Positions 7,834-22,585 of a DNA stretch of 64,000 nucleotides are shown here, piece by piece. A program made the position numbers and the translations under genes. The notes beneath the pieces were generated by a model. That model saw only the letters and a list, made by a program, of their open reading frames with translations. It did not search any database and was not told the origin of the DNA. Within the stretch, counting starts at the first letter, position 1, and each line of letters starts with the position of its first letter. This stretch comes from Rothia nasimurium (GTDB lineage Bacteria > Actinomycetota > Actinomycetes > Actinomycetales > Micrococcaceae), in contig NZ_CP056080.1 of NCBI RefSeq assembly GCF_014217215.1, positions 1,736,001 through 1,800,000 of the forward strand. Direction: 5' to 3'.

Positions 7834-10386
7834 TTAGGCTCGCTGAACCGCGCCGAAGCGTTCGGCGGCCAGGGCTACACCGGCCTCACGGGCCTCAGAG
7901 GCCTCATCAGCGGTCAGGGTGCGGTCGGTGGCGCGGAAGCGCAGGGCAAAAGCCAGTGACTTCTTGCCCTCTTCGATACCGGTGCCGCGGTAGTCGTCAA
8001 AGACGCGGACGTCCTCGAGCAGCTCCCCTGCGCCCTCAGCCAGGGTAGCGGCAAGGTCAGCGGCAGGAACTGCGGCATCGACGACCAGGGCGACGTCCTG
8101 GTTGGCAGCCGGGTAGCCGGAGATACCGGTGGCCTGCACTGCCTCGCCTGCCTCAGCGATCAGGGCGGTGAAGTTGAGCTCGAAGGCGCTGGTGCGCTCG
8201 GGCAGGTTGAGCTTAGCCAGCAGCTTGGGGTGCAGTTCACCGGCGTAGGCGATGACGTCACCGGCATCGTTCTTGAGCACGGCGGTACGGCCGGGGTGGA
8301 AGGCCTGGTGCTCGCCATTGGCAACGGTGAGCTTCACGCCAGCGGCATCGGCAACCAGGAGCACGGAGTCGAGGGCATCGCGCCAGTCAAAGGCACGGGC
8401 GGTTGCCCCCGGGGTTTCATCGTGCTCAGCACCCGAGAAGAGGCCGGCGATGTGGCGGGGCTGGTCGGGAATACCGGCATTCAGGTCGGCCAGAACCTCG
8501 TCGGCGGGCTTGACGCCCAGGCCGGGAATTGAGGCTGACCCCAGCTGGGTGCCGGGAATAAAGACAGAACCGGTCTCGTAGATGGCCAGGTTCTTGAAGC
8601 CGCGGGAGAGGTTGCGGGAGAGTACCTCGGTCAGACCCGGCAGCAGGGAGCGACGCATCCAGCCCTGAGCGGACGAGATGGGGTTAGCCAGGCGGATAGA
8701 ATCCACCTTTTCACCGGCGACAGGGGACGCCCAGAGATTGTTATCTTCGTCAGAGACGAAGGGGTAGGCAAAGACCTCGGTCAGGCCCGATGCTGCCAGG
8801 GCGTTCAGAGCCCGGCGGCGCAGGGTCTGCTCGACGGTGTAGCCGCGGCCGGGAGGGGCCACGGGCAGGGTCGAGGGAATCTTATCGTAGCCCACCAGGC
8901 GGGCAACTTCCTCGGTCAAATCTTCCTTGGCACCCAGGTCGGTGCGCCATGAGGGCACGGTAACCTCGTAGGAACCCTCGGCCACCTCAACGCTGGCGCC
9001 AATCTGCCCCAGAGAGCCAACAATCTGCTCTTCGGTGTAGTCAATGCCAATGCGGCCTGCGGTGTAGTCGGCGGGCAGGGAGATGACGGTGGGCTCGAAG
9101 CTGCCACCGGCGTCCGTCACGCCCTCATCGACGGTTGCGCCTGCCAGCTCTACCAGCAGGTCAACGGCGCGCTGGGCGGCAGCAGCCTGAATCTGGGGGT
9201 CAACGCCGCGCTCAAAACGCTTGGACGCCTCAGATGAGAGCTTGTGGCGGCGGGCGGTGCGGGCGATGGAGACCTCGTCGAAACGGGCTGCCTCAATGAC
9301 GATACGGGTGGTTGAATCAGAGACCTCGGTGGAAGCTCCGCCCATCACACCTGCCAGGCCGATGGGGCCGGACTCGTCGGTAATCAGCAGGTCTTCGATG
9401 TTGAGCTCGCGCTCCTTCTCGTCCAGGGTGGTGAGCTTCTCGCCAGCTTCGGCACGACGCACGGTGATGCCGCCTGCCAGCTTGTCTGCATCGTAGAAGT
9501 GCAGGGGCTGGCCGGTTTCGAGCATGACGTAGTTCGAGATATCAACCGGCAGGGAGACAGAGCGGACGCCCGCAAGGCGCAGGCGGGAGGACATCCAAGT
9601 GGGGACGGGGGCAGTTGCGTCGACGCCGCTAACAGAGCGGGCAACGAAGCGGGTGGCGCCGTCCTTACCGTGAATGGGTGCTGAGTCGGTCAGGGTGACA
9701 GGCAGACCCGCGCTGTTGGCAGCGGGCGCCTTGGCGGCCAGGTCGAGGACGAAGTCGTCGAAGTCGTTGCCGGTAGCATGGCAGTATTCGCGGGCGATAC
9801 CGCGAATGGAGAAGCCGTAGCCGCGGTCGGGGGTTACGTTAACTTCAGCGGCTTCGTCGTAGAGGCCCAGCAGCTCCATAGCGTCGGTGCCGACCTCGGG
9901 GTCAAGCCCCAAGGTGGAGAGCACCAGAATGCCGCCGTGGTCCTCACCGATACCGAGCTCCTTGACAGAGGCGATCATGCCAGCTGACTTGTGGCCGTAG
10001 GTCTTGCGGGCGGTAATAGCGAAGCCGCCGGGCAGTACAGCGCCGGGCAGGGTGACAACGACCTTATCCCCGGGCTTGAAGTTGTGGGCGCCGCAGATAA
10101 TGCCCTGCACGCCGGACTCTTCAATGCCCTTACCGGTCAGGGTCTGCTTCTGCCCCTCGGGCACAACGCGCACCTGGCACCAGTTAACGGTCTTACCGTT
10201 GGAGTGGGTTTCGGGCTCCATCGAGAGCACCTGACCCACCACGATGGGGCCAGTCAGCTCATCGGTCGGGCGGTGAACATCTTCTTCTTCAAGGCCAACC
10301 TTGACCAGGGTAGCCATAACATCTTCGGCACTTGCGTCGGCCGGAACGGGTGCGTATTCACGCAGCCAGGAAAGGGGTACGCGCAT
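7834..10386 (-). CDS. pheT: Phenylalanine-tRNA ligase beta subunit
   Basis: Large subunit of the heterotetrameric enzyme that charges tRNA-Phe. At 850 residues it is full length for the bacterial form: an EMAP-II-like tRNA-binding domain (about 40-155), a B3/B4 editing domain (about 220-390), the B5 domain (about 425-495), a catalytic-like core (about 500-740) and a C-terminal ferredoxin-fold anticodon-binding domain (about 755-850, ending FDDYRGTG and FRATDRTLT). It follows pheS by three bases, so the two are co-transcribed and a palindromic terminator follows. Confidence 0.97.
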   Translation of the reverse strand: MRVPLSWLREYAPVPADASAEDVMATLVKVGLEEEDVHRPTDELTGPIVVGQVLSMEPETHSNGKTVNWCQVRVVPEGQKQTLTGKGIEESGVQGIICGAHNFKPGDKVVVTLPGAVLPGGFAITARKTYGHKSAGMIASVKELGIGEDHGGILVLSTLGLDPEVGTDAMELLGLYDEAAEVNVTPDRGYGFSIRGIAREYCHATGNDFDDFVLDLAAKAPAANSAGLPVTLTDSAPIHGKDGATRFVARSVSGVDATAPVPTWMSSRLRLAGVRSVSLPVDISNYVMLETGQPLHFYDADKLAGGITVRRAEAGEKLTTLDEKERELNIEDLLITDESGPIGLAGVMGGASTEVSDSTTRIVIEAARFDEVSIARTARRHKLSSEASKRFERGVDPQIQAAAAQRAVDLLVELAGATVDEGVTDAGGSFEPTVISLPADYTAGRIGIDYTEEQIVGSLGQIGASVEVAEGSYEVTVPSWRTDLGAKEDLTEEVARLVGYDKIPSTLPVAPPGRGYTVEQTLRRRALNALAASGLTEVFAYPFVSDEDNNLWASPVAGEKVDSIRLANPISSAQGWMRRSLLPGLTEVLSRNLSRGFKNLAIYETGSVFIPGTQLGSASIPGLGVKPADEVLADLNAGIPDQPRHIAGLFSGAEHDETPGATARAFDWRDALDSVLLVADAAGVKLTVANGEHQAFHPGRTAVLKNDAGDVIAYAGELHPKLLAKLNLPERTSAFELNFTALIAEAGEAVQATGISGYPAANQDVALVVDAAVPAADLAATLAEGAGELLEDVRVFDDYRGTGIEEGKKSLAFALRFRATDRTLTADEASEAREAGVALAAERFGAVQRA

Positions 10387-14342: not shown

Positions 14343-14936
14343 TTGAAAACTGATCTTGAAAAGTATGTTCAGATTTTTGAGCAGTTCCTTTGCCATGCCC
14401 ACAATGAGGGTTTGTCTTCTGTGAATCATTTAAAGTTGATGAAGCTTGTGTGGGCTGCTGACCGTTTTCACCTGCGTCAGTTTGGCCGGACTGTTACTGG
14501 CGATACCTATGTTGCGATGAAGAATGGCCCTGTGGCTTCTGAGGGGCTTGATGTTATTCGTGAATCTGGCACCGGGTATTCGTTGCTTTCCCCGGATCAG
14601 CGTCAGTTTGTTGAAGAATTTATTGACTTCACGAATCATGAGGTTTCGCTGAAGTCTTCATGCGGTGACGATTTGTTGTCGCCCTCTGAGAAAATGATGA
14701 TTCAGAAGTCGTGGGAGACTTTTAAGGGCTTTGACCCCTTCTATTTGGCGAATTCGATTACCCATCAGTACCCGGAGTGGTCGAAGTTTGAAGGTTTTTT
14801 CGAGCTTCAGCCTAAGAGCCGCCGGGCAATGTCTCTTGAGGATTTCTTTTTGAACCCTGAGAGCGACTCTTTTTTTGCACAGGATGAACAGACTCTAGAA
14901 GCTGCCCACGATATTTTTGTTTTAGATCATTCTTAG
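14343..14936 (+). CDS. Panacea-domain (SocA/GepA-like, DUF4065) protein, probable antitoxin
   Basis: The 197 residues contain the Panacea core: NHLKLMKLVWAADRFHLRQFG at about 24-44 followed by the typical GDTYVAMKNGPV at about 49-60. Panacea proteins are known as antitoxins that neutralise many unrelated toxins. The TTG start is supported by TAAGGAG five bases upstream. The partner gene at 14976 begins 39 bp after the stop, fitting a two-gene toxin-antitoxin operon with the antitoxin first. The base composition is clearly more AT-rich than the host genes to the left, marking the left side of an acquired island. It could instead be a phage-derived regulator, since SocA/GepA relatives occur in prophages. 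Confidence 0.8.
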   Translation: MKTDLEKYVQIFEQFLCHAHNEGLSSVNHLKLMKLVWAADRFHLRQFGRTVTGDTYVAMKNGPVASEGLDVIRESGTGYSLLSPDQRQFVEEFIDFTNHEVSLKSSCGDDLLSPSEKMMIQKSWETFKGFDPFYLANSITHQYPEWSKFEGFFELQPKSRRAMSLEDFFLNPESDSFFAQDEQTLEAAHDIFVLDHS

Positions 14937-14975
14937 CTAGCAACCGCGTAAGTAGTCGTTTGGTGGGAGCTTGCT

Positions 14976-15461
14976 GTGCTTGAGAAGAATCTTGATTTAT
15001 GGGCGTTGTCTGTTCGTGTAGGCGCCGTCTTTAAGTTTCGTGGCGAAAAGCCCTTTCCTGCGAACCGCGAGGTGGGCCATCATTTCATTGTTGTAGGTGT
15101 TGATGAGAAACGCCAGCAGTTGTACTACGTGGTAAATGGTAGTTCTAAGGTGTCACGTTGGAAGGCGAATATTCATAGAACTTTAGGGGCGTTTCCTGGT
15201 GTTCGCCCGGAAGATACCTATGTGGTTATTCCTGGTGGTCAGACCCCGTACTTCCCTCGGGAGACAATGGTGAACTGCAATGCGGTTCATTCTTTATCGC
15301 TTGAAGATTTGAAGAGGGGAGAATTTGAGATGGTCAGCCCAAGTTATCTGGACGAGAGCAACCTGAGATTCTTGTTTCAGATTTTAAGGGCTGTGGTTGC
15401 TAGTCCCCAGGTCAGCGAGAGAGCAAAGAGGAAAGCTAAAGACCTTCTTGAGGAGAACTAG
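14976..15461 (+). CDS. Unknown protein, candidate toxin partner of the Panacea protein
   Basis: I do not recognise a named family. The 161 residues begin with a beta-rich part (about 10-85: RVGAVFKFRG, then GHHFIVVGVD and QLYYVVNGSS) that looks like a small SH3-type barrel as in PemK/MazF-like RNases, though no catalytic residues can be assigned. A conserved-looking middle (PYFPRETMVNCNAVH, about 94-108) and a helical, basic C-terminus (about 130-161) follow. The GTG start has a GGGAG ribosome site. Its position directly downstream of a Panacea antitoxin is the main reason to suspect a toxin. Base composition matches the island. Confidence 0.55.
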   Translation: MLEKNLDLWALSVRVGAVFKFRGEKPFPANREVGHHFIVVGVDEKRQQLYYVVNGSSKVSRWKANIHRTLGAFPGVRPEDTYVVIPGGQTPYFPRETMVNCNAVHSLSLEDLKRGEFEMVSPSYLDESNLRFLFQILRAVVASPQVSERAKRKAKDLLEEN

Positions 15462-15753: not shown

Positions 15754-15921
15754 CCTCTCATGGCGTGTAGCTGCTGGCAAGGCATTGCTTACGCCCACCT
15801 GAGTTGAGGTATCAGCTTATGGGGATAACGAATTGGTAAGCGAAAAGTTATGATGTTGAGGGGTGTAGATAGTCTCGACAAGAGCACCCCCGTTCGGACA
15901 ATAACTGCAAGGCGGTACATC

Positions 15922-16593
15922 ATGGCAGATTCTGCTGATCTCAAGGAAGAGCTCCTCGTTAAATCTAAGCAACGAGTTGCCGACCACGGTGAAGTGTTTA
16001 CACCTGCTCATATCGTTGAGGCCATGCTCAACCTTGTCAAAGATGAGTCTGAACGTATCGACTCACGGTTTCTGGAACCTGCCTGCGGTGAGGGCAACTT
16101 TCTGGTGCAGGTACTGCTACGAAAATTAGCAACTGTTCAGGACCGTTACGGTAAAAATGAGTTTGAACGCCGGCACTATGCTCTGCTCGGACTGATGTGC
16201 ATTTACGGTATCGAGTTACTTGAAGATAACGCCCAAATTTGCCGCGAAAACCTAGCTAGTATCTTTGACGCTTTTGTCAATGACGACAGTTCCCCCGAAT
16301 GGGGTGTGGCAGCTCGCAAAGTTCTTGAGGCCAATATTGTTCAAGCTGATGCTCTGACCTTACTCCGCCCAAACGGTGAAGCAATTATTTTTCCTGAGTG
16401 GGGCTATCTGACTAAGGGGAAGTTCCAGCGCCGAGATTTTTCTTTCGAGAACCTTACTAAGGGCAAGAACCTTGCTCAAGGTAATGAGCATACAGATAGT
16501 CTCTTTGGGGAGCTTGAAGCAGAGAGCATTTTTGATCCGGTACACACCCACAAGCCAATGACGGTCAAGCAGATAGCAGAACTGGACGGATAG
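15922..16593 (+). CDS. N6-adenine DNA methylase-like protein without the NPPY motif
   Basis: First gene of a restriction-modification operon. From ATG 15922 (AAGGCGG upstream) it has 223 residues; an earlier ATG at 15850 would add 24 residues with no good ribosome site. It shows EVFTPAHIVEAMLNLV (about 25-40) and the S-adenosylmethionine motif FLEPACGEGNF (about 56-66), then YGIELLEDNAQICRENL and NIVQADAL, as in gamma-class adenine methylases. The expected catalytic (D/N)PPY motif is absent; the protein goes into FPEWGYLTKGKFQRRDFSF and ends. It probably works as a partner of the next methylase, which does have NPPY. The stop codon directly abuts the next start codon. Confidence 0.8.
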   Translation: MADSADLKEELLVKSKQRVADHGEVFTPAHIVEAMLNLVKDESERIDSRFLEPACGEGNFLVQVLLRKLATVQDRYGKNEFERRHYALLGLMCIYGIELLEDNAQICRENLASIFDAFVNDDSSPEWGVAARKVLEANIVQADALTLLRPNGEAIIFPEWGYLTKGKFQRRDFSFENLTKGKNLAQGNEHTDSLFGELEAESIFDPVHTHKPMTVKQIAELDG

Positions 16594-18219
16594 ATGACAG
16601 AAAACAATCTGTTAAGGGGCCATAACCCTGATGTTTTGACCTGCATAGCAAACCTCTCAAACGACGAGGTCTTCACTCCGCCCTCTTTAGCTATTGCCAT
16701 GCTCGACCAGGTGGCTCGCGCCTGGGAGGAGCGTTTTGGTGAGGATATTTGGTCTAATCCTGATGTGAAATTTTTGGACCCTTTCACGAAGTCAGGAGTC
16801 TTCTTGCGTGAAATAACTTCACGCCTGGTAAAGGGACTCGAAGACAAAATTCCCGATGTTCAAGAGAGGGTCAATCATATTTTGACCCGCCAGGTCTACG
16901 GGATAGCGATTACTGAGGTCACGGCTCTAATAGCCCGGCGTAGTGTTTATTGTTCTAAGTGGGCCTCGAAAAAACATTCAATTTGTACTGCTTTTGAGAC
17001 TGATGACGGCAATATCTGGTTTGAGCGGGTAGAGCACACTTGGGCTGGTGGGAAGAAGAAGCTCATCAGTCGCAAAAACGCTAAGACAAAGAAGTACGTC
17101 TACGTCAATAGACGCTGTTCTTTCTGTGGAGCTAACGAAGCGGAATATAGCCGAGGTGATGACTTTGAATCCCATGCCTACGCTTTTATACACACAGACG
17201 AACCTCGAACACTGATAAGAAAGATTTTTGGAGAAGATATGCAGTTTGACGTCGTGATTGGCAACCCGCCTTACCAGCTCTCAGATGGTGGGCATGGGGC
17301 CTCTGCTTCTCCTATCTACCAGCACTTTGTTGAGAAGGCTTTAGAGCTTGACCCAAAGTATGCGGTCTTTATTACCCCATCGCGGTGGTTTGCTGGTGGT
17401 AAGGGCTTAGATGAATACCGGCAAAAAATGCTATCTGATCACCGCATGAAAGCACTCGTAGACTACCCTAAACTCTATGAGGCCTTCCCCGGTGTAAAAA
17501 TTCGTGGTGGTGTTTCCTACTTCCTCTGGGATAAGAATCATGACGGTAAGTGTAGCGTTCAAACTATCTGGGACGGAAAGCCCACAGGAGAGCCTATCGA
17601 GCGGTACCTTGACCAGTTTGATGTATTGGTGAGATCCAATCAGGCGGTTTCTATTCTCGAAAAGGTACAAGCCTTTGAAGAGGCAACAATGGATACACAT
17701 ATTTCAAGCCGAAAGCCATTTGGACTTGCAACTAACTACGTTGGTAAGTCCTCACCTCGTGGTTTAGAAGAACCACTTATGCTCTATGCAAATCAAAAAG
17801 TGATCTGGGCTGAAAAGAGCTCAATCACTGTAAATGTCGATTGGATTGACCAGTGGAAAGTCTTGATGACGAAAGTTCATGGCACCAGTGCAGCAGTTGA
17901 AACCATGTTCCTGTCGCGTCCCATCATCGCAGAGCCAGGAACAGCTTGTACTGAGACCTACCTAGTTGCTGGTCACTTCGACACTGAGGATGAGGCAAAG
18001 AGTCTAGCCTCCTACCTTAGAACCCAGTTCGCACGTTTTCTAGTTTCCTTGAGAAAGTCGACTCAAGACGCGCCAAAACATGTCTATAGCTTTGTACCTG
18101 TTCAGAGTTGGGACCGTTCTTGGACTGATGAAGATTTATTTGCCAAGTACGGGCTAACAGACGAAGAAATCTCCTATATCCGGTCGGTTGTTCTGCCTAT
18201 GGAGGAAGAACTACTGTGA
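16594..18219 (+). CDS. Eco57I-like adenine DNA methyltransferase
   Basis: Modification subunit of the restriction-modification operon; predicted to methylate adenine N6 in the recognition site. In the 541 residues an N-terminal EVFTPPSLAIAMLDQV and a degenerate cofactor motif (FLDPFTKSGVFL, about 66-77) precede a cysteine-containing insert (YCSKWASKKHSIC and RRCSFCG, about 126-175, perhaps zinc-binding), then the catalytic VIGNPPYQLS near 221-230 and a C-terminal half that probably recognises the target. It starts immediately after the previous stop (TAGATG) and its stop overlaps the GTG of the nuclease-helicase by four bases. AT-richer than the flanking genes. Confidence 0.88.
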   Translation: MTENNLLRGHNPDVLTCIANLSNDEVFTPPSLAIAMLDQVARAWEERFGEDIWSNPDVKFLDPFTKSGVFLREITSRLVKGLEDKIPDVQERVNHILTRQVYGIAITEVTALIARRSVYCSKWASKKHSICTAFETDDGNIWFERVEHTWAGGKKKLISRKNAKTKKYVYVNRRCSFCGANEAEYSRGDDFESHAYAFIHTDEPRTLIRKIFGEDMQFDVVIGNPPYQLSDGGHGASASPIYQHFVEKALELDPKYAVFITPSRWFAGGKGLDEYRQKMLSDHRMKALVDYPKLYEAFPGVKIRGGVSYFLWDKNHDGKCSVQTIWDGKPTGEPIERYLDQFDVLVRSNQAVSILEKVQAFEEATMDTHISSRKPFGLATNYVGKSSPRGLEEPLMLYANQKVIWAEKSSITVNVDWIDQWKVLMTKVHGTSAAVETMFLSRPIIAEPGTACTETYLVAGHFDTEDEAKSLASYLRTQFARFLVSLRKSTQDAPKHVYSFVPVQSWDRSWTDEDLFAKYGLTDEEISYIRSVVLPMEEELL

Positions 18220-20783
18220 GTCAAAAGATTGAAACACTCCTCCCTGAAAAGCCCACAGCCCGTCTCAAGATCTATGCTTGGACACCGAATAACCCTCCTG
18301 CTGGTTATGAGGGTCTCATCAAGATTGGCCAGACCACCCAGGCCGATGTCAATGACCGCATTCGGCAGTCTCAAGGGCAAATGCAGCAGGAATATACCCT
18401 CCATATCGACGTCCTTGCTGAGCGCCAAGACGGCAGCCTCTTCAGAGATAAAGATGTTATTAACCATCTCAAAGCAAAAGGGTTCGATAACCCCGCTATT
18501 GGGTCGTCGCGTGAGTGGGTTCGCTGCACAGTTGCCGATGTATTAACAGCCATTGAGGAAATCCGTTTAGGCCAGGTCTTTTCAGATAAGCGCCACCAAA
18601 CTTTTGGGCTCCGCCCCGAACAACAACGTGCCGTAGATTTTACCTACGATTACTATTTTTCCCTCTGGCACGAAGAACCCGATGTTACGCCCCGATTCCT
18701 ATGGAACGCCAAAATGCGTTTCGGCAAAACATTTACCGCTTATAAGCTGGCCCAAAAAATGAATGCCCAGCGCGTTCTGGTTGTTACCTTCAAACCAGCA
18801 GTGCAGTCAGCCTGGCAAGAGGACTTAGAATCTCACATCGATTTTCAGGGATGGCAATACCTTAACGCGTCGAGAAAAGCCGCTCAGGAAGAATACGACC
18901 CATCACAGCCACTCGTATATTTTGGCTCTTTCCAAGACCTGATGGGCAGGGACAGGGCAACAGGGCTCATCAAAGCTAAAAATGAGTGGCTCCATACCAT
19001 CAACTGGGACCTTGTTATTTTTGACGAGTACCATTTCGGTGCCTGGCGTGACAAAGCAAAAGAGCTTTTCGAGGGCGAAGAAGCCACTGAACAGAAAGCT
19101 GAGTTAAAAGCTGAATTTAACGAGTCACTCAAGACTTTTGACAAAGAACTAGATGAGCTGGACAACGCCGAGCAGGACTTTCTACCTATTACAACCAGGG
19201 CGTACCTTTACCTCTCAGGTACACCTTTTAAAGCTCTAACCAGTGGTGAGTTCATCGAAGAGCAAATCTTTAACTGGACCTACACAGATGAGCAGCAGGC
19301 AAAAATTGATTGGGAACAGGAGCACCCTGGCGAGTTTAACCCCTACGGTTCTCTGCCTGAAATGCGCCTGATGACCTACCAAATGCCTGACGATATTCTA
19401 TCGATTGCAAGTCAAGGCGAGTTTGACGAGTTCGACCTCAACAGTTTCTTTGAAGCAACAGGCACTGGGGCTGAGGCCAGGTTCGTGCATGAATCAGATG
19501 TGCAGAAATGGTTAGACCTGATTCGTGGTGAACATGCACCAACTCAGTTAGACGCTCTCCGTTCAGGTTCGCGTCCGCCTTTCCCCTACGCCGACGTTAG
19601 ACTCCTACCGTATCTACAACATTCATTCTGGTTCCTGCCTAATGTTTCAGCTTGTCATGCTATGGCTAGTCTTCTGAAGGCCAGGCACAACACCTACTGG
19701 CATGATTATCAGGTTTTGGTTGTTGCTGGTGCCGAAGCTGGGGTGGGAGTTGGGGCTTTACCGCCTGTTCGGGACGCTATAGGTGATGGTTATAGTTCTA
19801 AGACGATTACGCTATCGTGTGGGAAGCTCACCACGGGTGTGACGGTCAAGCAATGGTCTTCGATTTTAATGTTGAGGAATTTATCGAGCCCTGAAACATA
19901 TTTTCAGGCTGCTTTCCGGGTTCAATCGCCGTGGTCGATTATGAATCCTGATGGTGATGATCCCAGCAGAGAAGATATCTTGAAGCCTGTAGCTTTTGTG
20001 TTTGATTTTGCTCCGACACGGGCTTTGCGTCAGATAGCTGAGTATGGTCAGAAGCTGAACCCGTCAGAGTCTAACCCTGAGAATTCGGTGGCTGAGTTGG
20101 TTAAGTTTTTGCCAGTGCTTGCCTATGACGGCGCGAAAATGACTCAGATAGATGCTGGGAGCATTCTTGATATTGCCATGGCTGGTACCTCTGCGACGCT
20201 TTTAGCTCGTAAATGGGAGTCAGCTGTTTTGGTTAATGTTGATAATGCGACGCTTCGTAGGGTCATGAATAGTGAGGCTGCTATGGAAGCTATCATGCAG
20301 ATTGAGGGTTTCCGCGCCTTGGGCACTGATGTAATTGAAACTGTAGTTAATAAGAGTGACAAGGTTTCTGAGACGAAGAAGTCTAAAGGTGCTTCCTTGT
20401 CTGCACGCGAGAAGAAGAAGCTGTCTGCGGAAGAGAAAGAATACAAAGATAAGCGAAAGAAGATTCAAGAAAAGCTCATCAAGTTTGCAACTCGCATTCC
20501 TGCTTTCATGTATCTAACCGATTTCCGTGAGAATACCCTGCAGGATGTTATTTCAAGGATCGAACCGGACTTGTTTAAGACTGTTACTGGCTTGAGTGTT
20601 GCTGATTTCGAGCTACTGGTTAGTTTGAGGGTTTTCAATTCGGTGCATATGAATCAGGCAGTTTTTGCGTTCCGCCGCTATGAAGATGCCTCACTCTCGT
20701 ACACCGGGATCAGAAGTCACAAAAATCTCCGACAAGTAGGGCTGTACGACACAGTAGTGGCAATTGAGGATGAGGGAAACTAG
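18216..20783 (+). CDS. GIY-YIG nuclease / SF2 helicase fusion, predicted restriction subunit
   Basis: Predicted ATP-dependent restriction enzyme subunit. The N-terminal domain (about 18-110) is a GIY-YIG/T5orf172-type nuclease: KIYAW at 18-22, LIKIGQTT at 34-41, Arg48 and a downstream SREWVRC supplying the glutamate. The superfamily 2 helicase part follows: NAKMRFGKTF at about 164-173 (Walker A, Lys171), FDEYH near 269-273 (DEAH-like box) and FQAAFRVQSP (motif VI-like). A lysine- and glutamate-rich segment lies near 720-750. The 855-residue product starts with GTG overlapping the methylase stop, and the HEPN gene begins directly after its TAG. Confidence 0.88.
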   Translation: MSQKIETLLPEKPTARLKIYAWTPNNPPAGYEGLIKIGQTTQADVNDRIRQSQGQMQQEYTLHIDVLAERQDGSLFRDKDVINHLKAKGFDNPAIGSSREWVRCTVADVLTAIEEIRLGQVFSDKRHQTFGLRPEQQRAVDFTYDYYFSLWHEEPDVTPRFLWNAKMRFGKTFTAYKLAQKMNAQRVLVVTFKPAVQSAWQEDLESHIDFQGWQYLNASRKAAQEEYDPSQPLVYFGSFQDLMGRDRATGLIKAKNEWLHTINWDLVIFDEYHFGAWRDKAKELFEGEEATEQKAELKAEFNESLKTFDKELDELDNAEQDFLPITTRAYLYLSGTPFKALTSGEFIEEQIFNWTYTDEQQAKIDWEQEHPGEFNPYGSLPEMRLMTYQMPDDILSIASQGEFDEFDLNSFFEATGTGAEARFVHESDVQKWLDLIRGEHAPTQLDALRSGSRPPFPYADVRLLPYLQHSFWFLPNVSACHAMASLLKARHNTYWHDYQVLVVAGAEAGVGVGALPPVRDAIGDGYSSKTITLSCGKLTTGVTVKQWSSILMLRNLSSPETYFQAAFRVQSPWSIMNPDGDDPSREDILKPVAFVFDFAPTRALRQIAEYGQKLNPSESNPENSVAELVKFLPVLAYDGAKMTQIDAGSILDIAMAGTSATLLARKWESAVLVNVDNATLRRVMNSEAAMEAIMQIEGFRALGTDVIETVVNKSDKVSETKKSKGASLSAREKKKLSAEEKEYKDKRKKIQEKLIKFATRIPAFMYLTDFRENTLQDVISRIEPDLFKTVTGLSVADFELLVSLRVFNSVHMNQAVFAFRRYEDASLSYTGIRSHKNLRQVGLYDTVVAIEDEGN

Positions 20784-22385
20784 ATGAAGCATTCAATTCG
20801 TTTGCGACTAGCAGTTGAGATACCAGATATACCATCACCGCCGAAGGACCAGCGCTCCTCATTCTTTATCTGGGAAACACCTGAAGAAAAAGATAAATCA
20901 ATAATCTGTATTGGCGATGTATCATATCATCCGTTAATTCAATATTTAAATCAAAATAAAGATATACCCGTCGTGGGCATTCAGACCACCAACACCATAA
21001 ATGACACTCCAATCAAGGAAATTTTTCCAGAGTTAAACAACGACAGGCACAACAAAGCAATAGCAGAATTAAACCTAGAGATTTCCACATATGCAACATT
21101 GAATAATTTAGAAATTGATTCAATTTTTAAAAATGTTGAATTAAAGACTTCCAGTCATTATGGAAGTGAAGTTTACCTACTCCAAGAGTTTAAGAAACCT
21201 ACACAGTTAGGTGAAATCTCACATCTTATTGAGGTAGCATTAACAAACTGCATGAAGCTAATACAGCAAACTCAACTTAACTTCTATATAGTTAGACAAC
21301 GCTTCGTTTCGCATTTAATAACCCCTCAGCTGCTCCCTCCTGCGTTACCAATTTCAGTAACTCAATTAAATAAAGGGTTTGAAACCTCAAGGAAGTTCAC
21401 TGTTGTACCAAATAAAAAATCAAACTACCATTGGGGAGAGCGTCGCACATCTCTAAGTGAAAATGAAATTATTCATTTCAAGTCGAACATAAATAGATTA
21501 TACTCTTCGTATACATCAGCATACTGGGATGCACTTAGAGAAGGAGAACTAACAGGGACAAAGTATGGACTTTACAAACCAGCCATACTTCTTTTTGCAA
21601 CCGCTGCTGAAATACTTTTTAATGACATCTACTTGTTTCTGCAATGGGAAAAATCCAAGCTCCCCAGCGAAGTATCTTCTGAATGGAATAGAAGTTTCTC
21701 CCAGAGATTAGATGTTGTATACGATGCTTTGAAGATTAGCAGGGCTGACATAGACCCCTGGGAGAAGAATATTCGACAAATTAGAAATAAAATTGCCCAT
21801 GCAGAATATATTCCCTCAGAAGAAGATTATACTAGTGCATTAATCTCAATTCGAGACCTGACAAAAATTATTTCAGATGCTGCAGCAAGTGTCATTTCTG
21901 AGCACCCGCTAACAGCGTTCTACATTCTTGGCGATAAGGGAGCAAAGAGCAGGGGGAAGTTCAAAATACTTCAGGAACTAGTTGTTATCCCGGCAGATGA
22001 GGCAAACGTTGAAATTCGCAAAAGGTTTAACATCTGGAAAGATTACTTTACTTCACACCGGGAATACATAAATAAAAAACCTAGATTAAGAACAAATGAT
22101 TGCATACCGTCACTTCTTTTCAATCCAGCAACACATGACTTTATAGTATGTTATTACGATGAAAATTGGGGGGTGGCAAGAAAAGCAATGATTATCAGCT
22201 CTGATTTAGATGATATAAAAAAGGTGCTTTCTTCTAAAGCGGAAATGTTCCCGGAAGGTATCCATCTGCATGTACTTCAGCCCGGAGCGATAAGACCGGA
22301 AAAAGAATCAGACTGGGTTCCTATTTATCATTTTACAGAGATAGTAAATCTAACTCCAAACCATTGGGTTTCTAATCAAAATTGA
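20784..22385 (+). CDS. HEPN-domain protein, last gene of the restriction-modification operon
   Basis: The 533 residues include an ApeA-like HEPN region at about 225-380, with FATAAEILFNDIYLFLQWEK and the signature RNKIAH at 334-339 (R-x4-H), the active site of HEPN ribonucleases in many defence and toxin systems. The N-terminal 200 residues are beta-rich and unassigned, and the C-terminal 150 residues are also unassigned. ATG abuts the stop of the nuclease-helicase gene, so it is translationally coupled. It is the most AT-rich gene in the window, with codon use unlike its neighbours, so it may have been added from another source. A role as an RNase effector is an inference. Confidence 0.7.
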   Translation: MKHSIRLRLAVEIPDIPSPPKDQRSSFFIWETPEEKDKSIICIGDVSYHPLIQYLNQNKDIPVVGIQTTNTINDTPIKEIFPELNNDRHNKAIAELNLEISTYATLNNLEIDSIFKNVELKTSSHYGSEVYLLQEFKKPTQLGEISHLIEVALTNCMKLIQQTQLNFYIVRQRFVSHLITPQLLPPALPISVTQLNKGFETSRKFTVVPNKKSNYHWGERRTSLSENEIIHFKSNINRLYSSYTSAYWDALREGELTGTKYGLYKPAILLFATAAEILFNDIYLFLQWEKSKLPSEVSSEWNRSFSQRLDVVYDALKISRADIDPWEKNIRQIRNKIAHAEYIPSEEDYTSALISIRDLTKIISDAAASVISEHPLTAFYILGDKGAKSRGKFKILQELVVIPADEANVEIRKRFNIWKDYFTSHREYINKKPRLRTNDCIPSLLFNPATHDFIVCYYDENWGVARKAMIISSDLDDIKKVLSSKAEMFPEGIHLHVLQPGAIRPEKESDWVPIYHFTEIVNLTPNHWVSNQN

Positions 22386-22585
22386 TATAGTTTTTAGTAA
22401 GAAAAATATTTTATCCGGCAGATTATTATGTAGATAATATTTAGTGGTTAACACCCTGGAGTATTCAGACAACTATTGGCTCACTATATCAATACTTCTT
22501 TGCCTCTCATTTTTCCCGGAATAATCTCGCTCCCCTGCTTGTTACTCCTGAAGCAATCCTCTGTCCATCTCGAAAGGTACAGCCC

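Follow-up and report, generated by a model that had tools for sequence, protein, structure and literature searches.

The closest described relative of the locus treated here is DrdVI, a type IIG restriction–modification (R–M) system with the methylase M1-2.DrdVI, for which the site GCAGCC and the product N6-methyladenine (m6A) are known and the methylase genes have been cloned and expressed (PMC6430315). Split methylase genes resembling those of DrdVI have also been described as a family (PMC10113651). An association of HEPN proteins with R–M systems, and a second-line role for them, goes back to a 2013 proposal that connected at least 16 HEPN clades with R–M (PMC3710099). PrrC has been reviewed as a guardian of R–M (PMC12707154), and backup effectors have been described in BREX and related loci (PMC12839542). 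Here we address a four-gene operon at positions 15922 to 22385 of a 64,000-nucleotide (nt) stretch of the Rothia nasimurium genome (contig NZ_CP056080.1, positions 1736001–1800000; hereafter the window), in which three genes resembling those of DrdVI, denoted M1, M2 and HEL, are followed without a gap by a gene for a HEPN protein. We consider it probable that the locus is a DrdVI-type R–M core with a swappable cargo slot at its 3′ end, and that the HEPN gene is its current cargo. This reading starts from the family and gene order of the core, the conserved HEPN motif, the presence of different cargo beside a near-identical core, and the tight junctions.

All four genes lie on the + strand. M1 (15922..16593; Pfam N6_Mtase, 4.6e-7) encodes an N6-adenine methylase half and M2 (16594..18219; Eco57I, 4.6e-38) an Eco57I-type methylase half. 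HEL (18216..20783) encodes a GIY-YIG nuclease fused to a superfamily 2 (SF2) helicase or translocase, with T5orf172 (5.8e-5) and ResIII (8.7e-7) both above the Pfam cut-off. An earlier reading of the window (the original prediction) had proposed such a methylase plus nuclease–helicase core, and its account of the gene packing is likewise borne out. The TAG of M1 (16591–16593) is followed directly by the ATG of M2 at 16594 (0 nt gap), the TGA of M2 (18217–18219) and the GTG of HEL at 18216 share the 4-nt overlap GTGA, and the TAG of HEL (20781–20783) abuts the ATG of the HEPN gene at 20784. The M1 start at 15922 is favoured over a longer ATG at 15850 because the open reading frame (ORF) in two other Rothia loci (L020 and L022) begins at the equivalent residue, giving 223 amino acids. 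M1, M2 and HEL co-occur in 53 of the loci retrieved, and the tight arrangement of the core is therefore not due to chance.

A search of plasmids with HEL (tblastn) identified pDrdVI of Deinococcus wulumuqiensis NEB 479, where a DNA methyltransferase gene and an Eco57I methylase gene adjoin in the same order. Identities to the window proteins are 54% (M1), 48% (M2) and 64% (HEL). With all three proteins similar and the three-gene order preserved, genes 1–3 belong, by sequence, to the DrdVI-type split type IIG R–M family already known (PMC6430315; PMC4996451). A new R–M type was rejected on the same grounds, and the claim of an undescribed system does not hold for these three genes. Unlike the window, pDrdVI has no HEPN gene annotated on this stretch, and HEL is followed there by genes for a KTSC-domain protein and a recombinase; the Rothia core may recognise a site other than GCAGCC.

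In the window, M1 contains the S-adenosylmethionine (SAM) motif I (EPACGEGNF) and lacks NPPY, and M2 contains GNPPYQ together with a degenerate motif I (LDPFTKSG). The same division is seen in the 53 complete cores, i.e. those of the 67 loci with HEL in which both methylase genes are present, the end of HEL is resolved and the 3′ DNA extends for 600 nt or more. EPACGxGxF occurs in M1 of at least 47 (eight commonest forms counted), and [DNS]PP[YFW] is absent from the aligned part of M1 in all 53. Conversely, NPPY is found in M2 of 52, the remaining one not being covered, and motif I is degenerate there, e.g. DPFTKSG. Since motif I sits in M1 and NPPY in M2, the two proteins look like complementary methylase halves. 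The HEL motifs MRFGKT, DEYH and SGTPF are kept in 53/53, and membership in the DrdVI family suggests that HEL cuts DNA. Relatives of HEL are very common (at least 8,000 scored candidates at E ≤ 0.001; 79 plasmid records by tblastn); none was confirmed in the viral contigs searched. A sequence search of the PDB with M2 and HEL gave no match below E 0.05.

HEL was found in five of 35 Rothia genomes, in each case at one site with the same flanking genes, which we take to be an RNA-methyltransferase-like gene and nitroreductase-like and rplT-like genes. The HEPN gene is located 3′ of HEL in two of these genomes, that of the window and Rothia sp. S13M_Sa_13 (L019), with the TAG–ATG junction in both; DNA similarity between the two continues through the HEPN gene (blastn). 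The three remaining cores, with HEL 95–96% identical to that of the window, are accompanied by other genes. R. nasisuis 69RC1 (L021) carries ThsB_TIR (9.5e-24) and a HIT protein (2.3e-22), the latter presumably with a SLATT part, and R. nasimurium 37QC2O2 carries Drt3a (4.9e-78) and Drt3b (5.8e-121). In R. nasimurium 64QC2CO the region 3′ of HEL holds three reverse-strand genes, one for RES (7.8e-15), one without an assignment and one that matches cll (3.5e-21). DNA similarity between the window and these three loci ends 28–57 nt before the end of HEL (blastn), placing the left edge of the exchanged segment at 20726..20783 on the + strand, with stops at 20755 (two loci) and 20726 (one). Similarity is back at 22514, 22574 or 22583, ahead of the nitroreductase-like gene, giving a right edge at 22514..22583 (no strand). 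The G+C content is 37.3% for the HEPN gene, 47–48% for the core and 59.3% for the whole window. It differs between cargo and core and also among the cargos (HEPN 37%, DRT3 32–33%, RES cluster 34–36%, ThsB/HIT 46–47%). Because related genomes hold unrelated anti-phage genes at its position, gene 4 looks like exchangeable cargo.

The position 3′ of HEL was then compared across the 53 complete cores. Of the 67 loci, L090 and L101 were excluded because the HEL end was not resolved, and 12 because M1, M2 or the required length of 3′ DNA was missing; L030 and L031 (partial HEL) and L012–L015 (copies of L019–L022) were not entered. The plasmid records are represented by nine of 79, taken from the best twelve with H5, H8 and H12 left out as near-copies, and four further sets of HEL places by 17/18, 15/18, 7/9 and 7/7. 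The 53 cores are not independent (five Rothia; L050/L051; L016/L086; L091/L092; L076–L078/L085). ORFs were called mechanically, and some nearest ORFs in high-G+C loci, e.g. L017 and L041, are probably artefacts. A same-strand gene lies within 60 nt of the HEL stop in 27/53 cores when ORFs of at least 80 amino acids are counted, and in 25/53 at a minimum of 100. On the 5′ side the latter threshold gives 5/52, a contrast that is partly expected since M1 opens the operon. The junction between HEL and the next gene is exactly −4 or 0 nt in 14 cores.

In at least 17 of the 53 cores the nearest 3′ gene matches a PADLOC model at E ≤ 1e-5 (L016, L018, L021, L022, L024, L025, L029, L033, L045, L050, L051, L075, L086, L091, L092, L094 and L099). 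The assignments of L050, L051, L086 and L092 draw on two-member family counts plus annotation or sequence, and the matches of L025 and L094 are weak or generic. Several known systems are coupled to HEL: GajA (3.9e-157) with GajB (8.4e-81) adjoining in L099 (Gabija), SduA (1.5e-105) in L091 and, by two-member count, in L092 (Shedu), and SLATT_4 with SMODS/AGS_C adjoining in L029 (CBASS-type). ThsB is coupled in L021 and L075, IetA (8.5e-99) in L045 and HEC-05/GmrSD_N in L016. In L034 the gene overlapping HEL by 4 nt has a DUF4145 match below the cut-off, and its product looks like a second, unrelated HEPN-type protein. The window HEPN family itself is confined to two of the complete cores, the window and L019.

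Further observations concern the same position. Small proteins with a hydrophobic N-terminus, encoded in L076 (6104–6592), L077, L078 and L085, overlap the HEL stop by 4 nt; that of L076 has no Pfam or PADLOC match. L032 contains a 157-amino-acid ORF (9102–9572), also with a 4-nt overlap with HEL, that, judged by eye, is similar to a portion of the L029 cyclase and precedes transposase-like ORFs. It has no Pfam match and is possibly a decayed CBASS-type cargo. The mycobacterial plasmids L050 and L051 have a core of 43% identity, with HIT and TIR genes, a pair of the type seen in R. nasisuis, encoded immediately 3′ of it on the other strand.

Gene 4 (20784..22385, + strand) encodes 533 amino acids. 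Its best Pfam match, HEPN_Swt1 (PF18731; E 9.9e-4), spans residues 318–364 and includes the R-x4-H end of the domain (R334/N335/H339); two further HEPN matches are weaker, and the large N- and C-terminal parts on either side are without family assignment. The motif was placed correctly by the original prediction, and R334 and H339 are invariant in 7/7 sequences (window, S13M, P0002, C. maris, G878, G250, G848), with N or H after the arginine. The HEPN_Swt1 score of 19.8 bits falls under the Pfam cut-off of 27.5. Gene 4 is classified, at the level of sequence, as a divergent and rare HEPN protein, and because the R-x4-H motif is conserved RNase activity is plausible. A homologue search, run twice, each time gave two proteins among 7,995 scored candidates, of which P0001 is probably the window's own cluster. 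The gene was found in two of 99 relatives searched, both Rothia that carry the core. When 396 genomes of the phylum were scanned with a profile, nine places other than the window were hit, the top three at E 5e-30, 5e-21 and 5e-11 and the others at 8e-8 to 7e-4. No relative of M1, M2 or HEL was detected at E ≤ 1e-3 in the 11–19 kb around four distant homologues. The PDB sequence search gave no match at E ≤ 10, and no relative was confirmed in the viral contigs searched. AlphaFold (four near-identical rows) placed helices around the motif at low confidence, with a mean predicted local distance difference test (pLDDT) of 37.4 and a predicted template modelling (pTM) score of 0.31. Among plasmids, a single distant homologue (24% identity) was found in Corynebacterium maris. 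There (L003:7508-10152), a DUF5677 gene (7.7e-16) stops 2 nt before the HEPN homologue, and its product is a possible partner of the HEPN family.

For the preferred reading, a DrdVI-type core with exchangeable 3′ cargo, the following mechanism is proposed. M1 and M2 would methylate host sites, and HEL would translocate on, and then cut, unmodified DNA as a first line. The DNA immediately after the HEL coding sequence would serve as the slot in which unrelated defence modules are swapped while the core is retained, probably via homologous recombination through conserved HEL sequence. The HEPN protein, co-translated with HEL, would most likely act as an RNase, shutting down translation in the infected cell or killing it. 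It would have an RNA target, a trigger and an anti-phage effect, and would work largely on its own rather than as an obligate R–M subunit. The arrangement is reminiscent of BREX, where varied nucleases including HEPN proteins are found in or beside a modification core (PMC12839542). Still, the core is a different one, and the effectors there are described as embedded in or near the locus, whereas in the present case the change is found where the nuclease gene ends. HEPN proteins beside R–M systems are already known, and the second-line idea for them in general is in print (PMC3710099). As far as the literature searches show, three things appear to be new, namely the HEPN family, its association with a DrdVI-type core, and the swapping of defence modules of unrelated kinds directly behind the nuclease. 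No description of a cargo slot at DrdVI-type operons was found by title or abstract start.

A number of observations weigh against this reading. Tightly coupled same-strand neighbours are common in bacterial genomes, and in 28 of the 53 cores no such gene is present 3′ of HEL. The nearest 3′ gene is on the opposite strand in 18, including Rothia L020, several HEL-coupled genes match nothing in Pfam or PADLOC, and no defence gene is annotated directly 3′ of the core on pDrdVI. The HEPN identity lies below the Pfam cut-off, and the window protein matched no PADLOC model at E ≤ 1e-5. PADLOC defence matches were also found 5′ of M1 in at least two of 52 cores, with 25 of 64 families covered. Enrichment at the 3′ side is not claimed, as the counts, which cover 25 families on either side, are lower bounds, control operon ends were not included and 5′ matches exist too.

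As uncoupled and opposite-strand 3′ genes are frequent, a plain defence island could explain part of the pattern. The HEPN gene would then be a mere neighbour in a hotspot, and its tight junction a by-product of insertion with no functional link. The Rothia site is indeed variable on both sides of the core. Rothia genomes without the core have, judged by eye, apparent type I R–M operons (L061–L064) or almost nothing (L065, L066) at the same site. L020 has its reverse-strand cluster at the very place of the HEPN gene. The 14 junctions at exactly −4 or 0 nt, set against five same-strand genes within 60 nt among 52 5′ sides (a contrast expected in part), speak against it, and we regard the plain island as unlikely.

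A guardian function in the manner of PrrC assumes a closer bond, in which the core would keep the HEPN RNase inactive until an anti-restriction protein or loss of methylation sets it free, so that the second line is tied to the core. Conservation of the junction between HEL and the HEPN gene in both Rothia loci is consistent with this, as is the overlap of an unrelated HEPN-like gene with HEL in L034. PrrC–EcoPrrI provides a precedent, a HEPN RNase-type protein within an R–M operon with a proposed second-line role (PMC3710099; PMC12707154). However, PrrC combines an ABC ATPase with a type Ic host, whereas gene 4 is part of a DrdVI-type locus and no ABC-ATPase domain, the sensor of PrrC, appeared among its Pfam matches at E ≤ 1. 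HEPN homologues exist with no core nearby. Moreover, Gabija, Shedu and DRT3, encountered at the same position, function without R–M as far as is generally known. This explanation is quite unlikely.

A dedicated four-gene system with the HEPN protein as an essential subunit is scarcely credible and was rejected in its obligate form, since the identical order and junctions in the window and Rothia sp. S13M_Sa_13 are outweighed by the missing HEPN gene in three of five near-identical Rothia cores and by pDrdVI, whose methylase genes were cloned and expressed with no HEPN gene annotated on that plasmid stretch. The original prediction had regarded the HEPN protein as a fixed fourth component and had made its case depend on the presence of the gene in related operons; 51 of the 53 complete cores are without the window HEPN family.

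A broader version of the cargo-slot reading would make the 3′ end of DrdVI-type operons a general dock for immune modules of unrelated kinds (HEPN, ThsB/TIR-HIT, DRT3, CBASS-type, Gabija, Shedu, IetA, GmrSD-type). These would be translationally coupled at the nuclease stop codon and exchanged around a constant core, because a module co-expressed with the nuclease could act, or be released, when restriction fails. We hold this generalisation to be rather unlikely; were it true, the 533-amino-acid HEPN protein would be a new defence effector, encoded by a single gene and recognised from its position. If the slot itself is real, the gene 3′ of a DrdVI-type nuclease offers a cheap route to new defence genes. 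Several 3′-adjacent proteins had no PADLOC match, among them the window HEPN protein, that of L076 (with look-alikes in L077, L078 and L085), and those of L093 and L097. The Rothia site, where a single core is combined with varying second modules, would in that case serve as a natural experiment on whether paired defences act independently or in sequence.

Other genes vary in the surroundings of the Rothia cores as well. What we take to be a DinJ/YafQ-like gene pair follows the nitroreductase-like gene in L021 (13648–14222) and L020 (14451–15025); the ORF list of the window does not contain it at the matching place. Upstream of the core, window positions 14343–15461 hold a SocA/Panacea-type gene (Pfam 2.5e-18) and a 161-amino-acid gene without a family match above the cut-off, which together look like a toxin–antitoxin-style pair. 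Of the five core loci, the window and L022 have this pair and the remaining three do not; it is also found beside the apparent type I R–M operon of L064. In L061 (2382–10351), at the same Rothia site, a GmrSD-like ORF is located, by eye, between apparent hsdM and hsdS genes, an apparent case of cargo within another R–M operon.

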